Shown here piece after piece: positions 6,917 through 38,931 of a stretch of DNA of 64,000 nucleotides (positions are counted from its first letter, which is position 1; every line of letters begins with the position of its first letter). The notes beneath the pieces are model-generated. The model saw only the letters and a program-made list of their open reading frames with translations, had not been told where the DNA came from and did not search any database. Source of the stretch: Methanobacteriota archaeon (GTDB taxonomy: Archaea > Halobacteriota > Methanosarcinia > Methanosarcinales > Methanosarcinaceae); the NCBI GenBank assembly GCA_016841265.1, contig JAENZL010000003.1:1-64000 (forward strand), written 5' to 3'. The translations under genes and the position numbers were made by a program.

Positions 6917-7633
6917 ATGCAAACTGAAAATTTAAAGGCAGCATCTCAGGTTATTCTGGAAGTATCTCCAATTACTCTGGAAAATAATCTTTCGGAAAAT
7001 ATACCCTGCTTATGGGAACAGAATGATATTCTTATCTTTCTGGTTGACCTGGAAGATTACGGCACATTGAGTACGGAATGCTTTGACGATATGGAAATGG
7101 GAGGCCTGGAGAGATTAAAAACCGGGTATTTCAGGAAAAGGTACATTACTTCCCGAATGGTCCTGAAATATATTTTGTGCAGCATTCTTGAAGAAAGGTC
7201 AGTTTCCGATATAGCTACTTATAAGGACAAATACGGAAAAGTCCATGTACGCAACCATGAAGAATTACATGTCTGCATCTCATATACTGAAAATATTGTT
7301 GCCCTTGCAGTCTCAAAGTTCGAGCTTGGGGTTGATATTGAGGTTAAAAAAAGGCGGGCTCTTACGAACATTTCCAAATATCTGGATAAAAAAACTTTTC
7401 AAACCGATAAACCCGTAAATTGTCTCGATCTCTTAACGACCTGGACCCTGAAAGAAGCGTATTGCAAGTTTTGGAATAAAAGTATTTTTTCTACTTTTTA
7501 CAGGGAAGTGAATCTTAATAATGTCAGTTATTCAAGCTATATTATAGACAACGAATACATACTTTCTATCATCACTGATGACGACCGGAATGCGATCAAT
7601 ATAAGTCGTCTTCAGAAAATAGCTTATCTATGA
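6917..7633 (+). CDS. 4'-phosphopantetheinyl transferase (Sfp-type)
   Basis: A 238-aa member of the Sfp/AcpT superfamily. It moves the phosphopantetheine arm of CoA to a serine of a carrier protein, turning apo into holo form. Both signatures are present: ELGVDIEVKK (Asp140, Glu142; Mg2+/CoA binding) and WTLKEAYCKF (residues 176-185), with HVCISYTEN near 118-126 as the upstream HxSxS-like motif. The length is normal for Sfp-type enzymes. The carrier protein starting at 8135 is the obvious substrate, 500 bases downstream. Carrier-protein modification is rare in archaea, which generally lack type II fatty acid synthesis, so transfer from bacteria is a reasonable inference. Codon use is AT-rich like its neighbours. 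Confidence 0.88.
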   Translation: MQTENLKAASQVILEVSPITLENNLSENIPCLWEQNDILIFLVDLEDYGTLSTECFDDMEMGGLERLKTGYFRKRYITSRMVLKYILCSILEERSVSDIATYKDKYGKVHVRNHEELHVCISYTENIVALAVSKFELGVDIEVKKRRALTNISKYLDKKTFQTDKPVNCLDLLTTWTLKEAYCKFWNKSIFSTFYREVNLNNVSYSSYIIDNEYILSIITDDDRNAINISRLQKIAYL

Positions 7634-8134
7634 AAATACGAAAACGATGCTTTTTGGATGCCGGGAGCAATTTTTACTTCGTTATTCCCTGGGTTTTGCG
7701 GGGCTTATGTACAGAACCTTTTATAATGGGCTGCATTTAAACATTTCAAGAAACATTATTTCTCAATATTTTTAAGAAATTTTATCTCCGAAGGCGGGAA
7801 GACTCCTTCCTCAGAGGCCGCAGGCCGACAGGTGGGAGATGGGAGCCGTCAACTTCCCAACACTACACTCAGAGAAAACGATATTATGAACAATTGTGAA
7901 AATTGAAATGACATCTGGATAAAGTGGGATAATTGATAGGGGCAACAACGTAACAAATGATAATGAGAACAATGTAAATAATTTATATGAGAAACAATAT
8001 AAATAATTGATAATACGTAAATACTAATGGGGATTACTCAAATATTTACAGGGATATTAACACAATGATATACTAAAGTGTATACTACTCATGTTGTTTT
8101 ATCCACTATATGAAATTAGGGGGGCTAAGGTCGA
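7634..8134. other. spacer with transposon-end-like remnant
   Basis: No gene is seen between the phosphopantetheinyl transferase and the carrier protein. The spacer holds a GC-rich structured patch at 7785-7852 (listed separately), then AT-rich DNA at 7905-8030 with repeated AATAATTGATAAT-like words. The carrier-protein promoter probably lies in 8040-8120. Confidence 0.5.
7785..7852 (+). mobile_element. possible IS200/IS605 (TnpB) right-end remnant
   Basis: A GC-rich island in AT-rich DNA. It begins TCCGAAGGCGGGAAGACTCC, contains a GGCCGCAGGCC hairpin, and ends GGTGGGAGATGGGAGCCGTC. This layout resembles the structured right ends of archaeal IS605/IS1341 elements, which also form the TnpB guide RNA scaffold. 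No tnpA or tnpB coding sequence remains nearby. The match is from memory of the pattern, not a database hit. Confidence 0.33.
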
Positions 8135-8380
8135 ATGGAACCTATAAAGAATGATATACTTGATTATCTGAAAGACAATTCTTTTATGGATACGAACATT
8201 GGCTTGGAAGATAATGATTCTCTCACCCAGAACGGCATCATGGATTCGATTGGGTTGCTTGAATTGATGGACTATATCTGTGAAAAATATGCTATAGAAG
8301 TTCCCGAAGATATGCTGACACCGGAAAATTTTGACTCACTGCAGGGGATCACTAACCTGATTGTCAAACTGGTGAAGTGA
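8135..8380 (+). CDS. acyl/peptidyl carrier protein
   Basis: An 81-aa carrier protein of normal length and predicted four-helix fold. The phosphopantetheine attachment site is Ser38 in GIMDSIGLLELMDYI, matching the D-S-[IL] core of carrier proteins; the rest is acidic, as usual. The ATG lies after an AGGGGGGCTAAGG ribosome-binding region. The gene overlaps the start of the AMP-ligase (stop TGA inside the next gene's GTG), which indicates translational coupling and a carrier loaded by that ligase. Its arm is presumably installed by the transferase at 6917. The layout resembles the DltA/DltC (D-alanyl carrier) or NRPS-like stand-alone adenylation arrangement rather than fatty acid synthesis. Confidence 0.88.
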   Translation: MEPIKNDILDYLKDNSFMDTNIGLEDNDSLTQNGIMDSIGLLELMDYICEKYAIEVPEDMLTPENFDSLQGITNLIVKLVK

Positions 8381-9864
8381 GAGATATGAGGATCGATGCT
8401 TATATCACGGAATATGCCAGAAGAACTCCTCAGCAAATCGCTCTGGAAGAAGGCAAAAACTCCATCTCCTATAGCTGTCTCGATGAAGATATAGATACTA
8501 TTGCTTCTTCCATGGGGGACTTTGGGCATTGTAGGTTTGCAATCCTGGCAGAGTCCGGCATACAATATATAAAGATTCTCATGGCAGTATACCGGTCAGC
8601 CAACATTGCAATACCTCTTCCGATAGAATTCCCGAAATTCAGTCTGGAGCAGATTCTTGATAATGCCCACGTCAATAATATAATTGCAACAGAGTCACAA
8701 TACTCTAGATATGGTGAGGATTTTTTTGGGCTTTTTGGAACGGTTGTTGTTGTTTCAAATGACACTTCAGTAACGACCCTGCGTAAAAATATAGTAAATG
8801 AGACCAACAATCCGGACCTGAGGCTGGTGCTTTACACGTCCGGCACGACAGGTACTCCAAAAGGGGTCATGTTAAGTGATCGAAATTTGATAGCAAATGC
8901 AGAATCGATAATTGAGGTTCTCGGTATAAGTTCCGGTGATAAGGGTGCACTGGTAATATCTCCACACCACGCTTTTGGTAATTCCATAATAGATTCCCAC
9001 CTGATGGCCGGGGGGGCTGTCAGAATCGGAAGCATGAATTTTATGGAATCTACATTCAGCCTTATTGAATCGGGAGTCTCCGTATTCTACGGAGTCCCAA
9101 GTACCTATCGGATCCTCCTCCGCTATCCAGAGAGGTTCAAAAAGGCATTTAAAAATGTCAGAACTGCCGCATCCGCAGGTGGGGGAATGGATGCACTAAC
9201 CGTGAAAGAGATAAATGAGTTATGCCCCGGTACGGTGATTCTGCCGATGTACGGCCAGACTGAAGCTACAGCACGGTTGGCCTACCTGCCACCGGAGGAT
9301 GTGGCCGAGTTCGTTGATTCGATAGGGAAGCCGATTCCCGGCGTTATGCTTGACGTATTCGACGATGAAAACAGGTCGGTAGGGCTGAACACAAGGGGTG
9401 AACTGGTTGCCAGGGGCGAGAATATTCTACTAGGTTATCTGGACGACGAGATCGCAACTGAAAAGAAGCTCATAAATGGATGGATGCACACGGGGGACTT
9501 GGCACAGAAATTGCCCAACGGTTATTTCAGGCTACTTGGCCGAAAGGACGACCTCATAAAAATAGGCGATCATCGTGTGAATCCGAGGGAAATTGAAAAA
9601 CATATAGAAAGTAACACGGAAGTTTCCAGGGTTTTTGTCGTACCGGTTTTCCACGAACTTATGGGAACTGCGATTAGCCTCATGATCATCCCGAAGGAAG
9701 GGACAGAACTTGATGCTCTTTTTTCATTCTGCCGGAAAAATTTGCCCGGATACCTGTGTCCAAGGGAGATTCTTTTCATCGATCATCTTCCATTAAGCGA
9801 GAATGGGAAGATATCCAATAGGTCAATTATAGGGGAGTACCAAAATGTCAAGAATAGTGTGTAA
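8377..9864 (+). CDS. AMP-forming acyl/aminoacyl ligase (adenylation enzyme)
   Basis: A 495-aa stand-alone ANL-family enzyme. It activates a carboxylate with ATP to an acyl-AMP and probably loads it onto the adjacent carrier protein. Core motifs are intact: TSGTTGTPKG (154-163), MYGQTE, ELVARGEN with LLGYLDDE, HTGDLAQ, LLGRKDDLIKIGDHRVNP, and the catalytic-lysine region LSENGKISNR near the C-terminus. The substrate (amino acid, short acyl or other) cannot be told by eye. The start is either GTG 8377, overlapping the carrier gene stop, or ATG 8386. The 3' end overlaps the next gene by about 20 bases, so 8135-10849 is one operon. Confidence 0.9.
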   Translation: MRDMRIDAYITEYARRTPQQIALEEGKNSISYSCLDEDIDTIASSMGDFGHCRFAILAESGIQYIKILMAVYRSANIAIPLPIEFPKFSLEQILDNAHVNNIIATESQYSRYGEDFFGLFGTVVVVSNDTSVTTLRKNIVNETNNPDLRLVLYTSGTTGTPKGVMLSDRNLIANAESIIEVLGISSGDKGALVISPHHAFGNSIIDSHLMAGGAVRIGSMNFMESTFSLIESGVSVFYGVPSTYRILLRYPERFKKAFKNVRTAASAGGGMDALTVKEINELCPGTVILPMYGQTEATARLAYLPPEDVAEFVDSIGKPIPGVMLDVFDDENRSVGLNTRGELVARGENILLGYLDDEIATEKKLINGWMHTGDLAQKLPNGYFRLLGRKDDLIKIGDHRVNPREIEKHIESNTEVSRVFVVPVFHELMGTAISLMIIPKEGTELDALFSFCRKNLPGYLCPREILFIDHLPLSENGKISNRSIIGEYQNVKNSV

Positions 9865-10849
9865 AAAGTGTGTTCTGGACTCGGATATGCCAGGCATAGA
9901 TATTAATGAGGAAAGCGGGCTCTGTCATTTTTGTGAGACTTATGTCCCTTTTTCTGCTCAGGAAAAGAGTGACTATCTGGAGAAAATGGAAGAACTCTTC
10001 AGGGAATACGGGGGTAGGGGTAACTACGATGTGGTCTTTGCGCTTTCCGGGGGCAAGGACTCTTCATACACGCTTCACAAACTCAAAAATGAATATCCTT
10101 TCCTTAAAGTCCTGGCTGTCCAGTTCGATAATGGGTTCATATCTGATAACGCGGTAGAAAACGCGAAAAAAATGTGTGAGCTCACGGGATCTGATTATTT
10201 TAAGCTGACGATGGAAAATGAGGTCCTGTACGAAACTTTCCGGAAAGCTGCGGAATCCCGTGATGCATTCCCCAGGTTAGCCAAATACAGGGCGAGCGAC
10301 ATATGCAACACCTGTATCAGTATCATCAAGCAAAAGTTGATAGAAGAGGCTATTGTTCAGGATGCCCCTTTTATTATGTTTGCCTTCACCCCGGGACAGT
10401 CTCCTAATCCCATAATCCCCCTGAAGGCTAATTTTATACGGTGGTCCAGGAGCATTTTTGAGAAACAACTTCAAAAAATTGGTGTTGAAGATAAGGATGA
10501 AAAGTTCCTGATTAAAAACGAGGTTATTGAAAGTATGGGCAAGGAGGGACCGAGGATGCTCCATCCTCTGTGTCTGTGGGATTATAACGAAGGTCAGATA
10601 CTAGAGTCCCTGGTGGAGATAGGGTGGAACCCTCCGGATCTCAATGACAGCAATTCAACTAACTGTACATTGAATTCTTTTGCCTGTCAAAACCATCTGG
10701 AAAAATACGGGATCCACCCGTATGCCTTTGATATAGCAGGAATTGTGCGAAGTGGAGATATGTCCAGGGAGGAAGGCCTGGAAAAACTCCACCAGGCGCT
10801 ATCACAGCCATTGATTGAGGAAGCTGCAAAGAAACTAAATTGCAGGTGA
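9845..10849 (+). CDS. zinc-finger PP-loop ATPase, N-acetyl sugar amidotransferase-like
   Basis: A 334-aa protein. An N-terminal zinc-binding module with CxxC pairs (Cys6/Cys9 and Cys27/Cys30) is followed by an N-type ATP pyrophosphatase domain with the PP-loop SGGKDSS at 68-74. This layout is typical of WbpG/LegG-like sugar amidotransferases, which adenylate a carbonyl or amide for attack by ammonia, and of other adenosine-nucleotide alpha-hydrolases. Such enzymes usually pair with HisH/HisF-like ammonia donors. None is in the window, so the nitrogen or sulfur source is open. Later cysteines (DICNTC near 150-156, NCTLNSFACQN near 276-286) could bind a further metal or cluster. The start overlaps the ligase gene and has a GGGGAG ribosome-binding site. 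Confidence 0.78.
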   Translation: MSRIVCKKCVLDSDMPGIDINEESGLCHFCETYVPFSAQEKSDYLEKMEELFREYGGRGNYDVVFALSGGKDSSYTLHKLKNEYPFLKVLAVQFDNGFISDNAVENAKKMCELTGSDYFKLTMENEVLYETFRKAAESRDAFPRLAKYRASDICNTCISIIKQKLIEEAIVQDAPFIMFAFTPGQSPNPIIPLKANFIRWSRSIFEKQLQKIGVEDKDEKFLIKNEVIESMGKEGPRMLHPLCLWDYNEGQILESLVEIGWNPPDLNDSNSTNCTLNSFACQNHLEKYGIHPYAFDIAGIVRSGDMSREEGLEKLHQALSQPLIEEAAKKLNCR

Positions 10850-11125
10850 GTAGCTCTCAAAATCTGTTACCAGAGATCTAGTATCTGATCCATTGCCATT
10901 CAAGATCTGGACACAGGTGACTAAAAATATGGCTCTTGTTGGGTGAGTAAAGAGAATTCCAGGATCATTGGTAGCCATTTCCTTAAAATTGATTTGAGCT
11001 ATTTCCTCAAAGTCGAGGGTGGCTATTCCCTTTAAATTACGGGGGCTATCCCCTCAAAATCAACGGGTTAAATTACTTACTTTGTAATTTAATGTGAATC
11101 TTCTATCCATTGTGGGGGTAATATC
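10850..11125. other. spacer with 24-bp repeats inside the cassette
   Basis: The spacer separates the carrier operon from the NAD-synthetase-like gene. It contains the tandem array at 10971-11066 and AT-rich DNA before the ribosome-binding site GGGGGT of the next gene. A promoter for 11126 may lie at 11065-11100. Confidence 0.5.
10971..11066. repeat. degenerate 24-bp tandem repeat, four copies
   Basis: Four units aligned on the core GGCTATTYCCT..AAA begin near 10971, 10995, 11019 and 11042 (spacing 24, 24 and 23). Examples are GTAGCCATTTCCTTAAAATT and GTGGCTATTCCCTTTAAATT. They lie between two genes of the same orientation. Function unknown. Confidence 0.8.
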
Positions 11126-12124
11126 ATGCAAGTAATGGATATTCAATTAAATAACATACAAATAATGGACAAACTTAACGGAGACATTGAAAATCTTGCA
11201 ATGAAGCTCAGGGGCTTTATCAAAGACCAGGTTGTCGGTTTTAAGAAAAAGGGGGTAGTAATAGGAGTCTCGGGAGGAGTGGATTCGGCTGTAGCTCTTA
11301 CGCTTTGCGTACAGGAACTTGGGAAGGAAAAGGTTTACGGTCTGCTCCTTCCTGAAATAGAATCGGCTCCTTCGAGTAAAACTCTTGGGGCAGAAATCTG
11401 TAAAAGCTTGGGTGTGGCTTATGAAGAGGTCACTATCTCTCCTATACTGGAATCCCTTGATATCTATGAGAAGAAGGACCGGATCATAAAGAGGACCTGC
11501 CCTGAATATGATCCTGGGATCCATAAAACGTCCCTTATATTGCCTGATTTCCTGAACCAGGGATTGTTGAACGTTCCTTATATACAGTTGATAAAAGACG
11601 GGGAATCAGTTGGAAAATACAGGTTGAAGGCAAGCGATTATCTGGAACTTATCGGACTGCAGAACGTCAAACAGAGGTCCAGGATGATAGTCCAGTATAT
11701 GTATGCTGAGAAGATGAACTATGTAGTTTGCGGCACGACCAACAAGACAGAAATGGTTCTTGGCCAGTTCGTGAAATACGGGGATGGAGGTGTGGATATT
11801 GAACCCCTGGCGGATTGCTATAAGACTCAGGTCTATGCTCTGGCAAAATATCTTAATGTCAACGAAGAAATTATACGAAGGCCTCCAAGTGCTGACACCT
11901 GGAGCCATTACACCTCTGATGAAGACTTCTACTGGCGCATGCCCATTCATGTCATGGATCAATTACTGTATGGCCAGGAACATCAAATGCCCGTAGAAGT
12001 AATTGAGAAGAACACCGGACTGTCCGGAGAGACCATACTCAAAGCTCAAAGGCACATTTCTAGAATTAAAGATACTACCGAATATGTGCGGGCAACAGCA
12101 CCTATCTACTCTCTGGACCTTTAA
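11126..12124 (+). CDS. NAD synthetase-like PP-loop amidating enzyme
   Basis: A 332-aa protein of the NadE family (ammonia-dependent amidation of an adenylated carboxylate). The PP-loop is SGGVDS at 49-54; GTTNKTE (203-209) and KYGDGGVDIEPLAD (217-230) match the NadE nucleotide and product-binding motifs. It differs from housekeeping NadE by an insertion at about 125-165 and a long C-terminal part, which suggests another carboxylate as substrate. It is placed among carrier-protein genes, so it may amidate a biosynthetic intermediate; being the genome's true NAD synthetase remains possible. The ATG is preceded by TGGGGGTAATATC. The 24-bp repeat array lies immediately upstream. Confidence 0.8.
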   Translation: MQVMDIQLNNIQIMDKLNGDIENLAMKLRGFIKDQVVGFKKKGVVIGVSGGVDSAVALTLCVQELGKEKVYGLLLPEIESAPSSKTLGAEICKSLGVAYEEVTISPILESLDIYEKKDRIIKRTCPEYDPGIHKTSLILPDFLNQGLLNVPYIQLIKDGESVGKYRLKASDYLELIGLQNVKQRSRMIVQYMYAEKMNYVVCGTTNKTEMVLGQFVKYGDGGVDIEPLADCYKTQVYALAKYLNVNEEIIRRPPSADTWSHYTSDEDFYWRMPIHVMDQLLYGQEHQMPVEVIEKNTGLSGETILKAQRHISRIKDTTEYVRATAPIYSLDL

Positions 12125-12206
12125 GCCACAGTTTTTCTCCGGATGGTTGTTTTCTCATGGGCCGCCTCTGGATAGTTGAGTACATGAGGTACGTATAGGA
12201 GGAGAA

Positions 12207-12947
12207 ATGCTCACAGGCAAAGTGGTGCTGGTAACAGGCGCAAGTCGGGGGATTGGAAGAGCTACAGCCTTGCTGGCAGCAGAGAACCACGCACATGTGA
12301 TCATAAACTACAACCGGAGTGAGGAAAAGGCAGTCGAACTTGCGTACCTGATCCACGGGAAAGGGTTTCAGGCTTCGATGATCAGGGCCGATGTTTCATC
12401 CGAAGACGAGGTCAGGGCCATGTTCCGGTCTATCCGGGAGAAACATTCCAGGCTCGATGTGCTGGTAAACAATGCGGGAATCATGCAAAATAACTTTCTG
12501 ATGCTGAGCAATACGGAACTCTTTGACCGTACCATTGCGACTAACCTGAAGGGGACGTTCCTGTGTTCCAGATACGCATCAAACATGATGAAGAAGCAGG
12601 GGTCCGGCAGGATCATCAATCTATCTTCCACCATAGGACTCCACGGGAATGCCGGGCAGACAGTATATTCTGCAAGCAAGGCGGCTGTTGTCGGATTCAC
12701 AAAATCCGCGGCCATGGAACTGGGCAGGTATGGCATAACTGTTAATGCTATTGCCCCCGGTTTCATTGAAACCGACCTTATCAAGGATCTTAAACCTGAC
12801 ATCAGGGAAAAAATTATTTCCAATATCGCTCTCGGAAGGATCGGTAAACCCGAAGATGTTGCAAAGGTTGTATTGTTTTTGAGCTCGGATCTCGGGGGGT
12901 ATGTCAGTGGCGAGGTCGTTGTGGTCGACGGCTGCCAGATGATGTGA
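12207..12947 (+). CDS. short-chain dehydrogenase, FabG-like 3-oxoacyl-ACP reductase
   Basis: A 246-aa classical SDR. TGASRGIG (10-17) binds NAD(P)H, NNAG (88-91) is structural, and the catalytic set is Ser140/141, Tyr154 and Lys158 in YSASK. The C-terminal tail GYVSGEVVVVDGCQMM matches the GYxTGxxxxVDGGxxM pattern of FabG. FabG reduces 3-oxoacyl groups on carrier proteins, so with the carrier protein 4 kb upstream it could reduce a carrier-bound beta-keto intermediate. Related SDRs also act on sugars. A strong AGGAGGAG ribosome-binding site precedes the ATG. It lies 82 bases after the NadE-like gene, probably in the same transcript, and is the last gene of the cassette. Confidence 0.85.
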   Translation: MLTGKVVLVTGASRGIGRATALLAAENHAHVIINYNRSEEKAVELAYLIHGKGFQASMIRADVSSEDEVRAMFRSIREKHSRLDVLVNNAGIMQNNFLMLSNTELFDRTIATNLKGTFLCSRYASNMMKKQGSGRIINLSSTIGLHGNAGQTVYSASKAAVVGFTKSAAMELGRYGITVNAIAPGFIETDLIKDLKPDIREKIISNIALGRIGKPEDVAKVVLFLSSDLGGYVSGEVVVVDGCQMM

Positions 12948-13333: not shown

Positions 13334-15407
13334 GTGAAACTTGGCAATCCAAAAAACGGTAGTATAAACGTTGATTCTACTGTAAAACGTACAAGTTTTT
13401 TAGGTCACCTTGGTCTCGTAGCTGGAGTTTTTCAGGAACTTGAAGTTGACAAAGTGATTGATGAGAAGCTCCCGAAGAAAAGAGACCATAAAGTACCCCA
13501 TTCGATCTGTATCCTTGCTATGGTGATCAATGGCCTTGGTTTTGTAGGGCAACGTTTGTACCTGTTTCCTGACTTTTTCAAAAACATTTCTACAGAACGG
13601 CTCTTTGGAGAAGGCATAACCAGGGAAGACCTGAATCAATACGCTATCGGAGAGACTCTTGATAGGATTGCTGAGTATGGTCCAACAAAACTCTTTACGG
13701 AAATTGTTCTTCATGTCATGAGCCGTTTACCGATTTCTTGTCACCTCTTACACGCTGACACTACAAGTGTCAGTGTATACGGTGACTACGAAAATGATGA
13801 AGAAGAGGCAATAGACATTACTTTTGGAGTACCTAAGAATGGTAGATGGGATCTCAAGCAATTCGTGTTGAGTTTGATTGTGAACCAGCAAGGTATACCT
13901 CTATTCATGAGTACTCACTCGGGAAACGCTTCGGACAAAATCACTATCCTGGGAGCTATCAAATCCCTGAAATCAAGCTTGATTCCCGATAACAAAGTGT
14001 ACTATGTTGCTGACAGTTCCTTCTACACCGAAGATAATATCAAAAATATGGGAAAGACATTCTGGGTCAGTCGAGTTCCTGCAACGATTACTGAGGCAAA
14101 GGATTTACTCAATGCAAATTTGAGCCTGAAAACTCTAAAAAGCGACGATAGATACTCATTTTATCAAACTTTTGTGGATTATGGTGGGGTCAAGCAAAAG
14201 TGGGTTTTGCTGCTTTCTCATAAGCTGAAGGAGAAGAAAGAGAAAACTCTGAGTAACAGATTTGATAAAGAAGTTGAGAAAGCAAGGAAGTCTTTGAAAA
14301 AGCTGAAAGGAAAAGACTTCTTCTGCGAAGAAGATGCTTTAAAGGCTGCTGAGGACTGGATTAAAGATTTCCCTTCTGTTGTATTTGATAAAATAGAGTT
14401 GAAGTCTATTAAAAAACGTGAATCTGGAAAGAGAGGTAGACCTTCAAAAGATGAGATTTTGAAGACTTATTATGGGATTGAAGCTGACATAAAGATTAAT
14501 GATGCCTTTGTTTTGGAAGAAATGGAAAAAATGGGTCTTTTCATTATTGCAAGCAATAACATCAGTCTTTCTCCTGAAGATATGCTGGAGTATTACAAAG
14601 GACAAGATAAGGTGGAAAAAGGGTTCAGACCCATCTTTCAAAGAGATGGAAAAAACACTAACAACCGACGGCGCAAGCCCAAATTTTGTAGAAAACTGAT
14701 CCTACTGATGGCGATTTTCCATTACTTTTGCATTTTTTTGTTTTTTGAAATCGATAAGAGTAGACCCTGTTCACTTAAGACTATTTTTGATTTGGTACTA
14801 CATTTGATGTTTTGATCACTGGCATTTTTGTATTAATATATTATACAATTTGGCAACTTTAGCAGAGTTATTTCTGTTAATACATCTCACAAATCAAGAT
14901 AATTGTCCTAAATAGGCAAAACTTTCTGAATTGACCAACTCTAAACAGTGCTAATATTTTTTTCATAATCAGTAGGACCAGTTTTGTGATTTTTGCACCT
15001 TAGGCACTACGTATTTTCAATAGCAAGAGGGTCATTCAGCCAATATCTTTGAAACTACAGTCAGATTCTTGAAAAGTAACACCTTCAGTGTATCGAAAGT
15101 TTACCTCAAAAAGAAAACAAGGATAGAAGCACTTGTAATGATAATGGTTCTCTGCCTTATGATTTATTCCATTGCAGAATGGAAGTTAAGGACAAGATTG
15201 GAAGAAGAGAATGAAACGGTTCCAGATCAGAAAGGAAAGCCTACAAAAACTCCCACTATGAGATGGATATTTTTCATATTTCAGGGAATTACAGAGCTTA
15301 TTACACAAAAAGAAGAGGAAATTGAGTTTGAAATTTTGAATATGGAAGAGATACATTGGAAAGTATTGAGTCTTATGGGAGAGAAGTATGAAAATATCTA
15401 TCTCTGA
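13334..15407 (+). pseudogene. IS1634-family (IS4-like DDE) transposase, split by insertion
   Basis: The N-terminal 432 codons run 13334-14629 from a GTG start, and the C-terminal 113 codons resume at 15066-15407. Removing 14630-15065 (the insert plus one TCAGA copy) restores a single frame of about 545 aa reading ...KVEKGFR-FLKSNTFSV.... Catalytic features of the IS4-type DDE fold remain: LHADTTS and YYVADSSFY for the aspartates, and Y..GQDKVEKGFR with the glutamate just before the break. As it stands the first part reads 61 codons into the insert before a stop, and the C-terminal portion would need its own start. The transposase is therefore probably inactive. Confidence 0.9.
14630..15060. 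mobile_element. 431-bp MITE-like insertion nested in the transposase
   Basis: The segment is flanked by a 5-bp direct repeat TCAGA (14625-14629 and 15061-15065), and its removal exactly restores the transposase frame. Its ends are inverted relative to each other: TTTCAAAGA near the left end against TCTTTGAAA near the right end. A longer inner inverted pair, AAAACTGATCCTACTGAT at 14692-14709 and its complement with one mismatch at 14968-14985, gives it a folded-back structure. No full transposase is encoded. Short open frames at each arm look alike when read inward, suggesting derivation from transposase-end sequence of another IS. Confidence 0.85.
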
Positions 15408-21094: not shown

Positions 21095-21748
21095 TCAAAG
21101 CCGGGTCTTAATTCTACCAGTAACATCCGGTCGTGAGGGCGAGTTACTGTCCGTGTCTTGAGAAACAGATTCATTAGATTTATTCTGATTAATTTGGGAC
21201 TCTTCATTTTGCTGACGGTTTTCATGAATTCCTCCCCAGGACTCAACATCCAGTTTTTTTACAACTCGAGCCGGGAATCCCAGAGCAAGGCTATTCGGAG
21301 AGATATCACGGCTAACCACGGACCCAATTCCGATTATAGAATTTTCTCCGATTTCAACCCCTTGTGTGATTATACATCCCGGATTTACACCAACACCGCG
21401 GCCGATTTTTATGGGGGCCGTGGTTCTTGGATAAGCATCTCTGGTGGTTAAACTGCCTCTTGTGTGGGCAGACAGTATACAGCGGTCCCCAATTTCGGCA
21501 TAATCTCCTATAGTGATTAAATCAGGGTGAATCCTATCAAAAATCACATCATAACCGATGTATACATTTTTACCTATATTTACGCCTCTCATTTTATGAA
21601 ATTTCGCTCTCCAGGAAGGGACTGGAAGACATGAGGCAAGTCTTTCCAAAACCCAATTTTTGAAATATTTCATTCCAAACAGGATTTTATTACTCTGATA
21701 ATAATCAGCCACTTCACTATAAGTTATTTTATCCCTGTCAGATATCAC
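21095..21748 (-). CDS. left-handed beta-helix (hexapeptide) acyltransferase
   Basis: A 217-aa member of the hexapeptide-repeat transferase family (maltose/galactoside O-acetyltransferase, WcaF type). Isoleucine-rich hexapeptides run from GVNIGKNVYIG near 54-64 through TIGDYAEIGDRCIL, VGVNPGCIITQGVEIGENSIIGIGSVV and end at the typical ALGFPARVVKK near 152-162. The last 50 residues are polar, Asn/Gln/Ser-rich and probably disordered. It likely transfers acetyl or another acyl group to a sugar of the local glycan; the carrier-protein cassette at 8-10 kb is a speculative acyl source. GTG start with a strong GGGGGGA ribosome-binding site. Confidence 0.85.
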   Translation of the reverse strand: MISDRDKITYSEVADYYQSNKILFGMKYFKNWVLERLASCLPVPSWRAKFHKMRGVNIGKNVYIGYDVIFDRIHPDLITIGDYAEIGDRCILSAHTRGSLTTRDAYPRTTAPIKIGRGVGVNPGCIITQGVEIGENSIIGIGSVVSRDISPNSLALGFPARVVKKLDVESWGGIHENRQQNEESQINQNKSNESVSQDTDSNSPSRPDVTGRIKTRL

Positions 21749-21893: not shown

Positions 21894-23027
21894 TTATCCC
21901 CTGTTTACAATTTTTACGAGCATTGTTTTTTTGATTTCTACCGCATCGTTAGGACATAGTTCGCGGCAACAATAACACTGAATACATTTTTCATCGTTGA
22001 TCCTGAGTGTATCTTCCATTTCCTCAATGGCATTTGCCGAACAGTTCAAAACGCATGCTTTGCAAAGCGTGCATTTTGAAGTGTTGATGAAGGGCTTTAC
22101 TGTTAAATACCTCCTGAGAGTCTTTCGGAGAAACGGCGGTATTAGGGTGGTGATTCCACCAATTGGCTTTTTGAAACTGACCTTTACCTCCTCCAGTGGA
22201 GTTCCTAAAAGCTCCGGATGCCTGGTACCAAATCCCCTTTCAAGTGAGGCTTTGTTTGTCGGGACTTGCATTGGGTCAAAACCGATTAGTTCCGAAGCCA
22301 CCATATCCAGGGCCACACAGTCATAACTTGCCATGACCACTCCCACATATGCAGGAGTACCTCTCGCCGGGCCATTCCCCTCCATTCCTACCACCCCGTC
22401 CATAACTGCAAGATGAGGTTTGACAACAGAGTAGATATCTACAACCGCTTCCCCAAAAAGTTCACGGTCTTCCAGGAAATGCGCCTGTTTTCTGATTTTC
22501 CGGGGCACCGTGCCAAAAAAGTTTTTGACTGCTCCGGTGTAGAATGTAAGCTCATGGGTCTTGAGCTTCGGAAGAGAAATTATCACATCCGCCTCAAGCA
22601 CGGCCTTTGATATGTACAGACGCGGAAACTGCCTCGCAGCGGGTACATCAACCTCGACAAAACCCCAAGTCTCAAAATTGATGAGTTCCGCACCGAAACC
22701 CGATGCAGCAGCTTCAATTCTTGATACCCTGAACGCTTCCGCAGTGGCAGTGGAATCAGGCCTTGTAACTCCGGCCCCATCCCCTATAAGAGGAATACCC
22801 CCTGCCTCTGAAACCAGTTCACACATCGCCGATACCACTGCAGGGTGAGTGGTGACTGCATCTTCCGGGGGTCGAATGGCAAGTACATTGGGTTTAAGCA
22901 ACACACGGGAACCAGGAACTATTAAATTCTCAAGGCCGCCGATAAGGTCAAGAGCTTCTCTAATGGCATTTTTTACATCTGAATAATCAGAGCAATGCAC
23001 GATGGAAACTCCGGTGTTCATGATCAC
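21894..23027 (-). CDS. DUF362 protein with C-terminal 2[4Fe-4S] ferredoxin domain
   Basis: A 377-aa protein. The DUF362 domain (LLKPNVL, TTHPAVVSAM, LPKLKTHELTFYTGAVKNFFG) is followed by a bacterial-type ferredoxin domain with two Cx2Cx2Cx3C sets: CTLCKACVLNC near 317-327 and CIQCYCCRELC near 347-357. DUF362 proteins are putative iron-sulfur enzymes with unproven reactions; the second domain suggests electron transfer. It lies within a glycan-gene cluster and may carry out a redox step there, although co-transcription is uncertain because 286 bases separate it from the dehydrogenase upstream. The first residues are MIMNTG or MNTG. Confidence 0.85.
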   Translation of the reverse strand: MIMNTGVSIVHCSDYSDVKNAIREALDLIGGLENLIVPGSRVLLKPNVLAIRPPEDAVTTHPAVVSAMCELVSEAGGIPLIGDGAGVTRPDSTATAEAFRVSRIEAAASGFGAELINFETWGFVEVDVPAARQFPRLYISKAVLEADVIISLPKLKTHELTFYTGAVKNFFGTVPRKIRKQAHFLEDRELFGEAVVDIYSVVKPHLAVMDGVVGMEGNGPARGTPAYVGVVMASYDCVALDMVASELIGFDPMQVPTNKASLERGFGTRHPELLGTPLEEVKVSFKKPIGGITTLIPPFLRKTLRRYLTVKPFINTSKCTLCKACVLNCSANAIEEMEDTLRINDEKCIQCYCCRELCPNDAVEIKKTMLVKIVNRG

Positions 23028-31416: not shown

Positions 31417-34400
31417 TTATTCACCGGCTTCGGGGATGTAGTAACCGGTCCGGTTAGATTCATCAGAATCTTTATCCGACTCATTATCCTGTTCTTCATC
31501 AGTCACTTCATCCTGTTCTTCGTCAATCACTTCATCCTGTTCTTCGTCAATCACTTCACCAGCTTCCGGGATGTAGAAACTGCCATTTTCATCAGTCACT
31601 TCATCCGGTTTTTCATCAGTCACTTCATCCTGTTCTTCGTCAATTAGTTCACCGGCTTCGGGGATGTAGAAATTTTCGTATTCATCCGGTTCGGGGACAT
31701 AGTCTGCAGGCAGGGGATTTGCGGTCATGTTTTCTGCCGTATATTCCGAGAAGTTTTCTGAGTCTCCATACCACCTGTTTGGCAGGGTAAAGTCAAGGTC
31801 TCCTCTGTACGTATCAGGAAGGAAGAGCTTTGTTCCCCTGTCTTCAAGGGCTCCCACAAAGCCAGGGTCAAGGCTATCCAGCTTACTCTTGGATGCTGAA
31901 GCTTCATCATATTTTTTTATACGGTAAAGGGCAAAGCGCTTATTGTAAAGAGCCGGAGCCGAGTTTGGGTTGATTGCAAGAGCCCTGTCGTAGGACTCAA
32001 TTGCTTCTTCGACTTCTCCCTGCACGTTGTAAATGTAACCTTTATTGTACCAGGCCGTAATGCAGTCGGGCTTTAACTGAGCTGCTTTATCGAAGGACCC
32101 CAGGGCAGCGGTATGGCTGCTTCTTGCATAATAAGCGCATCCTTTGTAATACCAGGCAGCAGCATTGTTGGGGTCATATTCCAGAGTTTTGTCATAACAA
32201 TCGATGGCTTCCTGATACCTCTCGAGCTTGTAGAATGCAAAGCCCTTGCTGTTATGAGCATCGGCATTTGCCGGGTCAAGTTCGAGGATCCTGTCATAAG
32301 AGCCGATTGCTTTCTCGAAGTCCCCGAGTTCTTCCAGGGCTTTAGCCTGCCTGTACATTACCTCCCTGTTACCCGGGGAGGCATCAAGGATCTTCCCATA
32401 ACACTCAACGGCTTCCTCATACCTGCCAAGCCCTTCGAAAGCCGAAGCTTTCTCGGCCAGGGCTCCGGAATTAGTAGGTTCGAACTCCAGGATTTTATCG
32501 TAATCATCCAGTGCTTCTTCAGATCTTTCCAGCTTCACGAGTACTGAAGCCCTGCCTTCCAGAGCCCCAACATTATTTGGCTCAGACTCAAGAAGTGTAT
32601 TGTAACAGGAAACTGCTTCCTCATATTTTCCAAGGCTGGCAAGGACCCGACCTTTCTCCTGGAGGGCCATGGCATTTTGGGGATCAATTTCAAGCACCCG
32701 GTCAAAGTAAGTTATTGCCTCTTCGGACCTTCCCAGGCTGTTAACAGTCGATGCCATCCCGTACCAGGCAACGCCGGATTGAGGGTCCAGATCTACGGCT
32801 CTCTTATAACATTCCATGGCTTCCTCGTTCCTGCCAAGCAGGTCAAGGACCGAACCTTCTTCATACCAGGCCTCGGTGCGCTCCGGGTTGATCATAAGAA
32901 CTAACTCATAAGAACTCAGGGCATCTTCATACTGCCCCATTTCCTTGCAGACGGAAGCTTTGCCGTACCAGACAGAGTCGAAACTGAAGAGAGGGTCCAG
33001 GAGCTCGACATTTTTGGGATCAGACCCTGTTCCGTACTTTCTTGAATCCGGTTTTTCAGAGCTCGGGAAATAAGCCCAGAACCCTCCCGCAAGGGCTCCT
33101 TCAAGGTTGACATCCCTGCTCTCTTCCGTCAGGGAACGGGAAACTTCGGTTCCTGAAAGTTCCACACCCTCTTTAAGTTTGAAAAGGGCAGGGGCATACT
33201 CCGGGTCGAGCTGGAGAGTCTGGTTGTAATAGTCTTCAGCCTCCTCGTGTTTGCCAAGCTGGTCCAGGGTCAGGCCTTTGTTATACCGGATTTCAGTACT
33301 TTCCGGGGCAAAGGCCAGGAGACGGTTATAACACTCGATAGAAGCATCGTATTCCTCAAGCCGTACAAGGGAAGACGCTTTGCCATACCAGGCAAGGTAA
33401 TAGTTTTCGTCCAGTTCCAGGGCTTTGTCGTAGCTTTTTAGGGCTTGCCTATGCTCTCCAAGCCTTGCGGAGTCGAAGCCCTTCCGATACCATACTTTGG
33501 CATAGTCTGGATCCAGCTTTAAGGCTTTTTCGTAAGCTACGACTGCTTCTTCGTACCTTCCAAGTCTGTCAAGATCCAGGGCTTTCCTGTACCAGACCAC
33601 AGCGTGTCCGGGTTCCTTTTCCAGGACTTGCCCGTAACATTCCGCAGCACTCTCGTAGTTTCCAAGTTTATCCAGAGCCAGGCCCTTGTCGTACAGGATC
33701 TTAACAGGTTCGGACCTGAACTTCGGGGTGTCGGGATAACTTGCAAGTGAAGCATCGTAAGCGTTCATTTTTTCAAGCAGAGCAGTCTCGACTTCTTCTG
33801 TCTGGATCCCGGAACCCGGGTCAAGGGCCATTTGAGCCATGGAGTAGCAGGCTACAGCTTCATCATACTGTCCCATCGCGTCAAGCAGGGAACCTTTGCT
33901 GTGCCAGGCTTCGTAGTTGTAAGGCTCGTAAGAAATGATTTCGCTGTAGGACTGGATCGCTTCGGCAGGTCTGCCAAGCTGTTCGAGGCAGAAACCTTTT
34001 CCCTGCAGAGCCTCGATAGAATCGGGCTCAGAGCGAAGGACATATTCATAGCAAGTTAAGGCTTCCTGATAATAGCTTAAAGCTTCCTGATGCGTCTCTT
34101 CATTGTCAAGTTCCCTGCCCAGCTTTTCAAGCCCCAGACCTTTACGGTACCAGGCTTCAGCCGAGTCGGGATTAAGGGAAAGGCCCTGCTCATAGCACCC
34201 CACAGCAGCCTCGTAGTTTCCAATTTTGTCAAAAAGCATTCCCTTCTGGTACCAGATTTCGGGGTCATCCGGGGTAATCTTCACGGCTCTGTCGAAACAG
34301 CTCATTGCTTTTTCATGTCTGTCGAGTCCGGCGTAAGCCAGTCCCTGCATATATAGGGCCCTGGAAGAGCTGGAACCGTACTCAAGGGACTTTTCATAAG

Positions 34401-34968
34401 AGATTAGGGCTTGCTCGTTATCTCCCAGCTTTTCAAATGCCAGGCCTTTTCGGAACCAGACTCCGGCAAGATAAGAGTCTGCAGCGAGACCTTTCTCGTA
34501 ACAATTTATGGACTCCTGGTAATTCATAACGCCGATAAGTTCATTCCCCATCTTGTACCAGTCCTGAGATGAATCAGGGGACGTTTCAAGGGCTTTATCG
34601 TAACAATCAAGCGAATCCTCATACAACCCGGACTCTTCCAGGGAAAGCCCCATGGCATACCACGCTGCCGAAGAAGCAGGGTCTAAAGAAAGTGCTTTCT
34701 TATAGAAGTCAACGGAAATTTCGTATTCTCCCAGAGAATACAGAGCATTGCCTTTAGCAATTAGGCCTTCAACGGAAGTCGGGTTCTGCGCAAGTACTTC
34801 TTCAAGGGAGGGAAAATCTCCGGCCCCACGGGCGTCTTCTGCAACCAATCCCTGGGTTGAAACAGCTCCTTCAACAGGTAAAGGACCTGCGGAAGAGACG
34901 ATGAATAAAGTGAAAACCAGGAGAACAAAGAAATTAACAATCGAATTAACTTTTTTAATTGGGCTCAT
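31417..34968 (-). CDS. very large secreted TPR-repeat protein
   Basis: A 1183-aa protein. A signal peptide (about 1-35, VKKVNS-like basic start then FFVLLVFTLFIVSSAG) is followed by roughly 25 to 28 tetratricopeptide repeats of 34 residues from about 50 to 1050. Typical units read AWYxKGxxLxxLGxYEEAxxCYDKALELDP. A linker near 610-660 interrupts the array. The C-terminal 120 residues are acidic, with DEEQDEV-type repeats and three copies of YIPEAGE, the last being the very end. TPR arrays are protein-binding scaffolds, so an extracytoplasmic scaffold is likely. The paralog at 35614 lies directly upstream in the same orientation with an identical GGGGTATTTAATGAGC start region. The acidic tail is absent from that paralog. 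Confidence 0.9.
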   Translation of the reverse strand: MSPIKKVNSIVNFFVLLVFTLFIVSSAGPLPVEGAVSTQGLVAEDARGAGDFPSLEEVLAQNPTSVEGLIAKGNALYSLGEYEISVDFYKKALSLDPASSAAWYAMGLSLEESGLYEDSLDCYDKALETSPDSSQDWYKMGNELIGVMNYQESINCYEKGLAADSYLAGVWFRKGLAFEKLGDNEQALISYEKSLEYGSSSSRALYMQGLAYAGLDRHEKAMSCFDRAVKITPDDPEIWYQKGMLFDKIGNYEAAVGCYEQGLSLNPDSAEAWYRKGLGLEKLGRELDNEETHQEALSYYQEALTCYEYVLRSEPDSIEALQGKGFCLEQLGRPAEAIQSYSEIISYEPYNYEAWHSKGSLLDAMGQYDEAVACYSMAQMALDPGSGIQTEEVETALLEKMNAYDASLASYPDTPKFRSEPVKILYDKGLALDKLGNYESAAECYGQVLEKEPGHAVVWYRKALDLDRLGRYEEAVVAYEKALKLDPDYAKVWYRKGFDSARLGEHRQALKSYDKALELDENYYLAWYGKASSLVRLEEYDASIECYNRLLAFAPESTEIRYNKGLTLDQLGKHEEAEDYYNQTLQLDPEYAPALFKLKEGVELSGTEVSRSLTEESRDVNLEGALAGGFWAYFPSSEKPDSRKYGTGSDPKNVELLDPLFSFDSVWYGKASVCKEMGQYEDALSSYELVLMINPERTEAWYEEGSVLDLLGRNEEAMECYKRAVDLDPQSGVAWYGMASTVNSLGRSEEAITYFDRVLEIDPQNAMALQEKGRVLASLGKYEEAVSCYNTLLESEPNNVGALEGRASVLVKLERSEEALDDYDKILEFEPTNSGALAEKASAFEGLGRYEEAVECYGKILDASPGNREVMYRQAKALEELGDFEKAIGSYDRILELDPANADAHNSKGFAFYKLERYQEAIDCYDKTLEYDPNNAAAWYYKGCAYYARSSHTAALGSFDKAAQLKPDCITAWYNKGYIYNVQGEVEEAIESYDRALAINPNSAPALYNKRFALYRIKKYDEASASKSKLDSLDPGFVGALEDRGTKLFLPDTYRGDLDFTLPNRWYGDSENFSEYTAENMTANPLPADYVPEPDEYENFYIPEAGELIDEEQDEVTDEKPDEVTDENGSFYIPEAGEVIDEEQDEVIDEEQDEVTDEEQDNESDKDSDESNRTGYYIPEAGE

Positions 34969-35613: not shown

Positions 35614-38600
35614 TCAGGTGGGGGCAGGGTCGGCAGGCTGGGAACCTGCAGACTCATTTTTGCTCACACTCCCCGTGACGTTTCCAGAATCCACATGCCA
35701 CCTTGTTGGTAGGGTGTAGTCCAGGGTCCCACTGTAGGTATCAGGGAAGAAAAACTTTGTTCCCCTGTCCTGCAGGGCTCCCACAAAGCCCGGGTCAAGA
35801 GCATCGAGTTTGGTCTTGCAATCCGAAGCTTCGGTGTATCTCTTTATGCGGTAGAGGGCAAAACGCTTATTATAAAGGGCTGAAGGCGAGTTGGGGTCGA
35901 TTGCAAGAGCCCTGTCATAGTTAATGATGGCTTCTTCAACATCTCCCAGCAAGTTGTAGATGTAACCCTTGTTGTACCAGGCCGTGATGCAGTTCGGTTT
36001 CAACTGGACAGTTTTATCGAAACTTGCCAGGGCTGCGGTATGGCTGCTTGCCGAATACTGGGCAAGCCCTTTGAAATACCAGGCTGCGGCGTTATTGGGG
36101 GCGTACTCCAGGGCCTTATTATAGCAAGCGATAGCTTCCTGGTACCTTTCCATCCGATGAAGGGCAAAGCCTTTTCTGTTGTACGCCTCGATGCTTACAG
36201 AGTTCAGCTCAAGGACTTTGTCATAACAGCCAATTGCTGCCTCGAAATTTCCGAGCATTTCCAGGGCAGCAGCCTTCCTGAATAGCACGTCCGTACTGCC
36301 AGGCTGGAGTTCAAGGATCCGGTCATAACTTGCAACCGCCTCTTCGTACTTCCCAATTTCTTCAAGAACCGAAGCTTTCCCAATTTCTGCTTGAATATTT
36401 ACAGGTTCAAGCTTCAGGATCCGGTCATAATCGGATACTGCTTCCTCATGCCTCCCGAGCTTTACCAGAGCCGAAGCCCTGCCGCTAATGGCCTCGAGGT
36501 TATCAGACTCAAGCTCAAGGAGCGTGTTGTAGCACGGAACGGATTCCTCGTACCTCCCTAAGCCAACAAGGACCGAAGCTTTCTCAGCCAGGGCTCCGGT
36601 ATTCCCGGGTTCAAGCACGAGTACCCTGTCGTAGTACGTTAGTGCTTCATCGTATCTCCCTAGTTTGTTGACAGCCGAAGCCATACCGTACCAGGCTTTC
36701 CCGGACTGCGGGTCCAGAGTGGCGGCTTTTTTGTAGGCTTCAAAAGCATTCACATACCTTCCTAGCTTTCCCAGGACCAGGGCTTGCTCGTACCAGGCGT
36801 CAACATGTTCGGGGTTGATCATCAAAGCCATGTCATAACAGGTAAGGGCATCCTCGTACATCTCCAGTTTTCTGCTGGCTGAAGCTTTCCCGTACCAGGA
36901 TGCATCATAGCCGAAACCTGAATCCAGAAACTCAACACTCCTGGGATCAAAGTTCTGAGAATACTCTCCTGAATCCAGGTTCTGGTAGCCCAGGAGATAG
37001 GACCAGAATCCGCTTGCAAGAAGTCCGTCAAGGGCGCTGGCACCTGTGGTATTTCCTGAAGACGGTTCGAAGGTCTCGGTATTCGAAAGTAACTCGAGGT
37101 TCTCATTTAGTTTGAAACGGGCAGGGGCATACGCTGGGTTGAGTCTGAGTGCTTCATTGTAGCATTCTATGGCTTCCCCGTACATGCCAAGCTGGTCAAA
37201 GGCAAGGCCCTTGTTATACCAGATCTCGACGCTTTCCGGAGCAAAAGCGAGAACTCTGTCATAACATTCGAGTGCCCCTTTATATTCCCCAAGTTGGGTC
37301 TGAGCAGAAGCTTTGCTGTACCAGGCAAGGGTATAATTTTCATCCTGGGCAAGAGCCTTATCATAGGATTTCACGGCATCTTTATGCTTCCCGAGCCTTG
37401 AGTAATCGAACCCTCTCTCGTACCAGGCTTTAGGACAGTCAGGGTCCAGTTTCAGGGCTTTGCCGTAACATTCCACAGCTTCTCCGTACCTGTCAAGACG
37501 GTCAAGGTTCCGGGCCTTTCGATACCAGACTACAGGATGTCCGGGCTCTTCTTCAAGGGCCTGGGTATAGCAATCTATTGCAGCTTCGTAATTCTCAAGT
37601 TTATCGAAAGCCAGACCCTTATCGTACAGGATCCTGACAGCTTCCGAATCGAAGTCCGGGGCAGCCGGGTAACATACCTGGGAAGAATCGTAAGCTTTCA
37701 GTTTCTGAAGAAGTGTGTCTCCGGCTTCTTCAACCTCAACTCCTGTATCCGGGTTGAGGGCCATTTCATAACATGTTATTGCGGCATCGTACTGTCCCAT
37801 TGCATAAAGTGCGGCACCCTTGCCGTACCAGGCATCGGAGTTGTCAGGGTCGTATGTAAGGATTTTATCGTAGCACTGAATAGCTTCGGAATATTTTTCA
37901 AGCTTTTCAAGATCCGCACCTTTTCTCTGAAGAGCATCGAGATTATCGGGGTCCGAAATGAGGACAGAGTTGTAACAGGTTAAAGCTTCCTGGTAACGTG
38001 TTCTCGCTTCCTGATTATACTTTAACGCTTCTTGTGTCTCTCCCTGGTTTTCAAAGTCCTTACTCAGGTTTTCAAGTTCTGTCCCCATTATGTCAAAGTC
38101 CATTCCCCTGTTGTACCAGGCTTCAACCGAGACAGGATCAAGAGAAAGAGCCACATCATAACATCCCACGGCAGCCTCGTAATCCTCAAGACTGTCGAAA
38201 ACTACCCCCTTCTGGTACCAGAGTTCGGAATTGTCAGGGGTGATATTCAGGGCTTCATTAAAACATCCTGTTGCCTCTTCATACTTTTCAAAACCTGCAT
38301 AAGCCATCCCCTGCATGTAAAGGGCTCTGGAACAGTTTGCATTGTACCCAATCGATTTATCATAAGAAACAAAAGCATGCTGGTCCAGTCCCAGTTTCTC
38401 AAATGCCATCCCCTCACGATAAAGGATCCTGGCACGGTAAGAATCAAAAAACAGAGCGTTCTCATAACAATCGGCGGCCTTAGCATAGCTTTTAATCCCG
38501 TAAAACTCATCCCCCCTTTCATACCAGCTTTCAAAGGAGTCAGGAGAAGTTTCAAAAGCCTTGCTATAAATTTCGATTGCGTCTTCATACATACTGAGTT

Positions 38601-38931
38601 CGTCAAGGGAACAGGCTTTACCATACAAGGCCATCGAGGAATCAGGGTCCAGTTCAAGAGCTTTATCATAGCACTCTATCGAAAGCTCGTATTCCCCAAA
38701 AGAATAAAGTGCATTACCTTTGTCAAGTAACCCTTCCACAGAAGAAGGGTTCTGGGCGATTATCTCCTCGAGAGGAGAAGTATTTTCAGGTCCTCCGGCA
38801 CTTGCAACCAGTCCTTTAAATGTAATAGCTTCAGCAGTAGGGAAGAAAGTTCCCGCTGAAATGAAGAGCAAACAAGCACTCAAGATAACTAATGAATTAA
38901 TAACCGACCGCACTTTTTTAACTGAGCTCAT
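35614..38931 (-). CDS. very large secreted TPR-repeat protein, paralog
   Basis: A 1105-aa paralog of the protein at 31417, with the same order: signal peptide (about 1-35; VKKVRSVINSLVILSACLLF), then more than 25 TPRs. A non-TPR linker lies near 615-670, and the final region NRW/TRWHVDSGNV matches the other copy's NRWYGDSEN. It ends shortly after the last TPRs and lacks the acidic YIPEAGE tail. Within the array many units are nearly alike, a sign of expansion by unequal exchange. The start shares the leader GGGGTATTTAATGAGC with the downstream copy. Exported scaffold function is inferred from the fold; partners are unknown. Confidence 0.9.
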   Translation of the reverse strand: MSSVKKVRSVINSLVILSACLLFISAGTFFPTAEAITFKGLVASAGGPENTSPLEEIIAQNPSSVEGLLDKGNALYSFGEYELSIECYDKALELDPDSSMALYGKACSLDELSMYEDAIEIYSKAFETSPDSFESWYERGDEFYGIKSYAKAADCYENALFFDSYRARILYREGMAFEKLGLDQHAFVSYDKSIGYNANCSRALYMQGMAYAGFEKYEEATGCFNEALNITPDNSELWYQKGVVFDSLEDYEAAVGCYDVALSLDPVSVEAWYNRGMDFDIMGTELENLSKDFENQGETQEALKYNQEARTRYQEALTCYNSVLISDPDNLDALQRKGADLEKLEKYSEAIQCYDKILTYDPDNSDAWYGKGAALYAMGQYDAAITCYEMALNPDTGVEVEEAGDTLLQKLKAYDSSQVCYPAAPDFDSEAVRILYDKGLAFDKLENYEAAIDCYTQALEEEPGHPVVWYRKARNLDRLDRYGEAVECYGKALKLDPDCPKAWYERGFDYSRLGKHKDAVKSYDKALAQDENYTLAWYSKASAQTQLGEYKGALECYDRVLAFAPESVEIWYNKGLAFDQLGMYGEAIECYNEALRLNPAYAPARFKLNENLELLSNTETFEPSSGNTTGASALDGLLASGFWSYLLGYQNLDSGEYSQNFDPRSVEFLDSGFGYDASWYGKASASRKLEMYEDALTCYDMALMINPEHVDAWYEQALVLGKLGRYVNAFEAYKKAATLDPQSGKAWYGMASAVNKLGRYDEALTYYDRVLVLEPGNTGALAEKASVLVGLGRYEESVPCYNTLLELESDNLEAISGRASALVKLGRHEEAVSDYDRILKLEPVNIQAEIGKASVLEEIGKYEEAVASYDRILELQPGSTDVLFRKAAALEMLGNFEAAIGCYDKVLELNSVSIEAYNRKGFALHRMERYQEAIACYNKALEYAPNNAAAWYFKGLAQYSASSHTAALASFDKTVQLKPNCITAWYNKGYIYNLLGDVEEAIINYDRALAIDPNSPSALYNKRFALYRIKRYTEASDCKTKLDALDPGFVGALQDRGTKFFFPDTYSGTLDYTLPTRWHVDSGNVTGSVSKNESAGSQPADPAPT

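Follow-up and report, generated by a model that had tools for sequence, protein, structure and literature searches.

What might an archaeon do with a stand-alone carrier protein encoded beside an acid-activating ligase, a PP-loop enzyme and a paralog of NAD synthetase, with no condensing enzyme in sight? The question is raised by six genes at positions 6917–12947 of a 64,000-nucleotide stretch (positions 1 to 64,000 of contig JAENZL010000003.1, GenBank assembly GCA_016841265.1; hereafter the window) from an archaeon with a 3.65-Mb, Methanosarcinaceae-type genome. A sequence-only reading of the window had proposed that these genes, by their motifs and overlaps, form an undescribed pathway that activates, amidates or reduces a carrier-bound acid. 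A check of the open reading frames (ORFs) found 6 of 6 on the plus strand, where that reading had placed them. Here we argue that the genes, less the reductase, belong to one conserved carrier module, whose PP-loop enzyme is predicted to insert sulfur into a carrier-bound group and whose NAD synthetase paralog probably forms an amide.

A conserved carrier cassette in Methanosarcinaceae

The first gene (6917–7633, +) encodes PPT, a 4'-phosphopantetheinyl transferase of the Sfp type that is predicted to turn apo-ACP into holo-ACP (39 bits to AusB; 23.6 bits to ACPS, a little short of the 25-bit Pfam cut-off). It is followed by ACP (8135–8380, +), a carrier protein of 81 residues scoring 45 bits to AmcB and, just under the Pfam cut-off of 20.8 bits, 20.3 bits to PP-binding; its phosphopantetheine site, Ser38, lies within GIMDSIGLLEL, so that the DSI serine is intact. 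A search of the whole genome with PF00550 reported no carrier, ACP being too divergent. LIG (8377–9864, +, GTG start) is an AMP-forming acid:carrier ligase of the acyl/aryl type (AMP-binding 178 bits, C-domain 44 bits), PPL (9845–10849, +) a PP-loop (AANH) enzyme with a tetracysteine zinc site, NADE (11126–12124, +) an NH3-dependent NadE paralog, and the last gene (12207–12947, +) encodes a FabG-like short-chain dehydrogenase/reductase (SDR; adh_short_C2 221 bits, TIGR01830 270 bits). ACP and LIG overlap by 4 nt and LIG and PPL by 20 nt, with gaps of 276 nt between PPL and NADE and 82 nt between NADE and FabG; because 501 nt separate PPT from ACP, PPT may be a transcription unit apart from the genes that follow. 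The cassette indeed contains no condensing enzyme.

Conservation was examined in 35 archaeal loci, mostly of 20 kb, against a family set of 112 genomes and a Halobacteriota set of 345. About half of the 112 family genomes hold a strong, near full-length PPL match, and the order PPT-ACP-LIG-PPL-NADE recurs across the Methanosarcinaceae loci, which rules out the possibility, raised with the initial proposal, that the genes are scattered in relatives and ordered here by chance. The other outcome that would have spoken against the proposal, loss of the carrier with retention of the ligase, was likewise not seen: ACP was detected in 58 of the 62 loci scanned, with the DSIGL serine in 58 of 58, and the four loci without it are short or end-of-contig pieces. 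PPT occurs as one strong copy per genome and, in high-quality Methanosarcinaceae genomes, only alongside PPL. Strong matches to the two agree in 41 of 41 genomes of the family at least 90% complete, the three disagreements all being drafts of 60–86% completeness. A single PPT serves genomes that carry two or three cassettes. In genomes of the Methanomethylovorans type (G065), PPT is unlinked to the cassette. Taken together, this agreement, the one PPT per several cassettes and the unlinked PPT suggest that an activating enzyme is reserved for a single carrier module, and we regard the cassette as almost certainly one functional carrier module; the claim that an archaeon has a conserved, carrier-based module for activation has thus held up.

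The six-gene boundary and the proposed reductive step have not. FabG follows only 17 of the 35 cassettes and is missing beside most of those in Methanosarcina, where the genomes offer only SDR paralogs of ~40% identity, or none, and where genes for a DUF362-ferredoxin and a hexapeptide transferase follow the cassette. FabG was therefore rejected as a core step. The core is ACP, LIG, PPL and NADE with one dedicated PPT, and FabG is accessory.

PPT itself shows some variation among relatives. The Methanococcoides-type gene (L041:7188-7862; also G015, G018, G020, G022 and G025) stops at an in-frame TAG, beyond which ~20 more residues match the C-terminus of relatives; this TAG is possibly a pyrrolysine codon. 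Short PPT relics with several stops were seen at G021:C74:592-759 and G023:C4:83024-83191, the latter genome having one relic beside the cassette and an intact PPT on another contig. In three Methanosarcina genomes (L036, L043, L045), extra copies of the cassette that have no PPT are preceded by CooC-like and IorAB-like genes.

What the ligase might load

The proposal had left open an acyl or an aminoacyl group on the carrier. In the pocket motif HHAFGNS of LIG, Gly or Ala stands where GrsA has Asp235, the residue at the alpha-amine position; because this Asp, which holds the alpha-amino group, is missing from LIG, an alpha-amino acid substrate is unlikely, and its loading was rejected on this A4 motif. 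The arginine of the TEATAR motif is kept in nearly all relatives, and one might speculate that it could bind a second carboxylate. We therefore picture only the opening steps in outline: PPT would arm ACP with phosphopantetheine, and LIG would adenylate a carboxylic acid other than an alpha-amino acid and load it onto ACP as a thioester.

The pairing of a stand-alone ligase with a carrier recalls the Dlt D-alanylation system (DltA/DltC/DltB), all the more as two relatives (L213, L215) have a gene for an MBOAT-type acyltransferase beside PPL-ACP-LIG. However, PPL and NADE have no Dlt counterpart, the window cassette has no MBOAT gene, and LIG reaches only 143 of 560 bits for DltA and ACP 21 of 68 bits for DltC. 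The ligase and amidotransferase families of exosortase/XrtA-associated exopolysaccharide (EPS) systems (TIGR03098, TIGR03108) resemble LIG and the AsnB-type enzyme of bacterial versions, and XrtW exosortase, XrtA-type deacetylase and hexapeptide transferase genes occur near some loci; but LIG scores 211 of 592 bits and AsnB 464 of 817 bits, and PPL and NADE fall outside those definitions.

Sulfur or nitrogen

PPL carries a zinc tetracysteine (C6, C9, C27, C30) and the PP-loop SGGKDS. Its best NCBIfam match is WbuX (TIGR03573) at 108 bits, and an AlphaFold2 model (pLDDT 93) best matches LpNASAT, an N-acetyl sugar amidotransferase (NASAT), at TM 0.68–0.71, followed by the [4Fe-4S] thiolases NcsA and TtuA. 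These resemblances are what would favour a nitrogen-inserting PPL, in which the enzyme would use ATP and ammonia to convert a carrier-borne or sugar-borne amide, supplied by NADE, to an amidine and so yield an amidine-bearing surface decoration. The NASATs WbuX, WbpG and LpNASAT share with PPL the zinc tetracysteine, the PP-loop and the overall fold (PMC10607449), and the glycan neighbourhood of the cassette described below would suit such a product.

Three features nevertheless set PPL apart from a plain NASAT, a candidate that we rejected. First, its score lies well below the WbuX cut-off of 203.2 bits, as does that of a bacterial relative (150 bits). Second, C154 and C157 (CNTC, codons at 10304–10315, +) and C274 (STNC, codon at 10664–10666, +), the predicted iron-sulfur ligands, are invariant, being kept in 28 of 28 sequences (PPL and 27 aligned relatives) and in all 49 rows of a wider set; the triad is found in 0 of 12 true NASATs, and the CxxC aligns with that of the host genome's own NcsA-type thiolase. 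Third, NASATs use HisH/HisF partners and act on sugar N-acetyl groups (PMC10607449), WbuX being encoded with HisF2 and HisH in one EPS cluster (PMC11340318); a HisH-type signature, the usual though not universal NASAT companion, was found near 8 of 13 NASATs versus 1 of 98 PPL loci. Finally, in distant bacteria the homologs of PPL are fused into nonribosomal peptide synthetases (NRPSs) and not into sugar enzymes. We consider nitrogen insertion possible, though on the unlikely side.

The triad directs attention to CtaC, the thioamide synthetase of closthioamide biosynthesis, an iron-sulfur AANH enzyme that uses ATP and sulfide, accepts its substrate only when this is bound to a carrier, and needs C154, C157, C284 and D77/S78 (PMC6772006). 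The corresponding residues of PPL are C154, C157, C274 and D72/S73, so that it has the PP-loop, CxxC and third cysteine of a CtaC-type enzyme. It is also linked to thiotemplate enzymes, overlapping or adjoining ACP and LIG in archaea and being part of NRPSs in other bacteria. The closthioamide pathway (CtaC/CtaE) and the cassette further share stand-alone carriers, an acid-activating ligase, the lack of a canonical NRPS and mostly anaerobic hosts. Unlike that pathway, the cassette has no peptide transferase or transglutaminase, contains NADE, and sits in a glycan context in an archaeal host. A class search around a Clostridia genome (G406) matched 5 of 46 genomes, with no recognisable closthioamide locus. 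By this analogy PPL is predicted to be a carrier-dependent, [4Fe-4S]-dependent sulfur-inserting (thioamide-forming) enzyme, which would adenylate the carrier-bound group at its amide oxygen and swap in sulfur from sulfide.

The NRPS fusions bear on the carrier part of this prediction. In Bacteroidota and others a PPL-like AANH domain interrupts the NRPS adenylation (A) domain between motifs A8 and A10 and precedes the peptidyl carrier protein (PCP), and the full-length examples read have both the STNC and the CNxC of the triad. The separate ACP, LIG and PPL correspond to this single-chain A-AANH-PCP arrangement, which supports PPL acting on a carrier-bound group.

Examples of AANH-interrupted NRPSs are L133:7355-11452, L136, L149, L152 and, from a Roseovarius pelagicus plasmid, L072. 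Genes for TonB-receptor-like, HupE/UreJ, acyl-CoA dehydrogenase and PhyH proteins lie near such NRPSs and may hint at a metal-binding product. Separately, NASAT-like Methanosarcinaceae proteins under the WbuX cut-off (L154, L155, L158, L159) often carry a CxxC+C triad (e.g. L178, L187, L180); the amidotransferase label may thus conceal another set of sugar-linked enzymes that possibly insert sulfur.

A NadE paralog tied to the cassette

NADE scores 477 bits to NF002048 (PRK00876; cut-off 313), 179 bits to TIGR00552 (cut-off 63.65) and 186 bits to NAD_synthase. It resembles the NH3-dependent NAD+ synthetase NadE in fold (its model matches NadE, with 2e18 as the best structure), in the PP-loop and in the GTTNKTE and GDGGVD motifs. 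It differs in an insertion of about 50 residues, in a dedicated linkage to the carrier cassette and in its substrate loops: TSESDS and SAGLWAGQTDEAELG of canonical NadE are replaced by SAPSS and SADTWSHYTSDEDF, and the loops for NaAD and NH3 are accordingly not those of the canonical enzyme. Among the 345 Halobacteriota genomes it exceeds the NF002048 cut-off in only 25, exactly those with PPL, and lies within about 2 kb of PPL in each; a 26th genome has a weak match below the cut-off.

One could still ask whether NADE and PPL serve ordinary cofactor synthesis or tRNA modification and stand beside the carrier genes by coincidence, as the homology of NADE to NAD synthetase and of PPL to tRNA thiolases might suggest. 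The host genome, however, encodes a separate canonical NadE (at C24), which argues against a need for NADE in making NAD, as well as a separate NcsA-like thiolase (at C66), and NADE and PPL track the carrier module across phyla. We find this coincidence very improbable. The separate NadE and the distribution tied to PPL genomes disfavour NAD synthesis by NADE, which is probably not its function.

A clue to what NADE does instead comes from bacteria. A PPL profile search of the genome collection gave matches in Methanosarcinaceae, in Methanomicrobiales (49–55% identity by alignment), in Deltaproteobacteria, Syntrophaceae, Clostridia, Omnitrophota, Elusimicrobia and Nitrospirota (34–38%) and in Bacteroidota, Acidimicrobiales, Paenibacillus and roseobacters (25–31%). 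ACP, LIG and PPL are kept together in anaerobic bacteria despite rearrangement, and with this trio found in several bacterial phyla the system is not archaeal only. Among 48 non-redundant loci, NADE is present in 22, an AsnB-type amidotransferase in 15 and both in one; the remaining 10, of which one is on a short contig, have neither enzyme. The two tend to exclude each other (Fisher p 3.4e-5 over the 48 loci, before tree correction for kinship), and on the PPL tree NADE and AsnB switch six times. This pattern suggests that one amide former is replaced by another, and thus that NADE probably makes an amide. The amidation predicted from the sequence therefore probably fits NADE, with AsnB in its place in many bacteria; PPL, by contrast, has a sulfur-inserter triad and no HisH partner. 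NADE would use ATP and ammonia to make the carboxamide, and a Gln-dependent AsnB-type enzyme would do so in many bacterial versions.

Neighbourhood and possible product

In the window the cassette has genes for a flippase, a UDP-sugar dehydrogenase and a DUF354 protein as neighbours; relatives have polysaccharide deacetylases (one over an XrtA-system cut-off), XrtW exosortase and GNAT-like or MBOAT acyltransferases. Two further genes, often next after the cassette in relatives, lie at 21.1–23.0 kb on the opposite strand here: a hexapeptide-repeat acyltransferase (21095–21748, −; Hexapep 38 bits; near the cassette in 22 of 35 loci), which is a candidate for a transfer step, and a DUF362-ferredoxin with two [4Fe-4S] motifs (21894–23027, −; DUF362 198 bits; after NADE or FabG in 19 of 35 loci). 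From these neighbours, decoration of a surface glycan is the likeliest destination. The acyltransferase, a hexapeptide protein in the window and a GNAT or MBOAT one in relatives, would then pass the group to its acceptor, most likely a surface polysaccharide.

Alternatively, the cassette might make a diffusible secondary metabolite, such as a signal, a metal chelator or an antibiotic, that bears a thioamide or amide and decorates no surface. The TonB-receptor and HupE/UreJ genes near the NRPS-embedded homologs would be in line with this, as would the acyl-CoA dehydrogenase, TPP-enzyme and KAS-like genes of one Clostridia version. Yet archaea and most anaerobic bacteria have the glycan neighbours (flippase, UDP-sugar dehydrogenase, deacetylase, exosortase), and no dedicated exporter is seen in the cassette; we think a diffusible product rather unlikely. 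For the host lineage we also considered methanophenazine, which we set aside since PPL is missing from all g9 genomes and from most of those in g10, taken to be Methanolobus-like. A role in defence was rejected as well, PADLOC giving 0 matches.

We thus favour a stand-alone cassette for carrier-bound amide or thioamide tailoring, probably decorating surface glycans, and give the mechanism as a whole an even chance. Several findings weigh against it. The closest solved fold to PPL is an amidotransferase (8wex), its kinship with CtaC is read from published CtaC residue numbers, and the triad also occurs in some NASAT-like proteins below the WbuX cut-off. The tree-corrected test of NADE/AsnB exclusivity is underpowered: across six independent pairs that contrast in NADE, AsnB at no point changes in the same direction, but the median p is 0.25. 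Both genes are absent from nine bacterial loci whose flanks are complete, so that PPL does not always need an amide-forming enzyme close by. The glycan destination, too, is drawn only from neighbours. The most specific version of the tailoring mechanism, in which NADE converts a carboxylate to an amide, PPL converts the amide to a primary thioamide, and the group is moved to a methanogen cell-surface glycan to give a thioamide-decorated polysaccharide, strikes us as improbable at present; to our knowledge, this chemistry is not described on any glycan.

Other features of the window are noted for completeness. A transposase-like ORF (13334–14815) lies directly downstream of the cassette, and fragments of a similar transposase (L036:6212-7764) adjoin the second cassette of G074. 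Positions 31417–34968 and 35614–38931 encode two long tandem TPR-repeat proteins, which are paralogs of each other and have signal peptides and acidic C-termini.

Implications

Literature searches (Methanosarcina with ACP/PPTase, NAD synthetase, thioamide or biosynthetic gene clusters; NASAT with ACP) returned no account of the cassette, in keeping with the suggestion that the system is undescribed. Carrier-protein chemistry is rare in archaea, and no archaeal thiotemplate pathway that has been worked out is known to us. For annotation, NF002048, named NAD(+) synthase, appears to be dedicated to the cassette in Halobacteriota, and the name is probably wrong for these members; the cysteine triad sets a branch predicted to insert sulfur apart from the sugar amidotransferases; and NRPS adenylation domains interrupted by an AANH domain have come to light in several bacterial groups. 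For the biology of the family, the locus reveals a carrier cassette that is conserved across Methanosarcina and has close versions in anaerobic bacteria.

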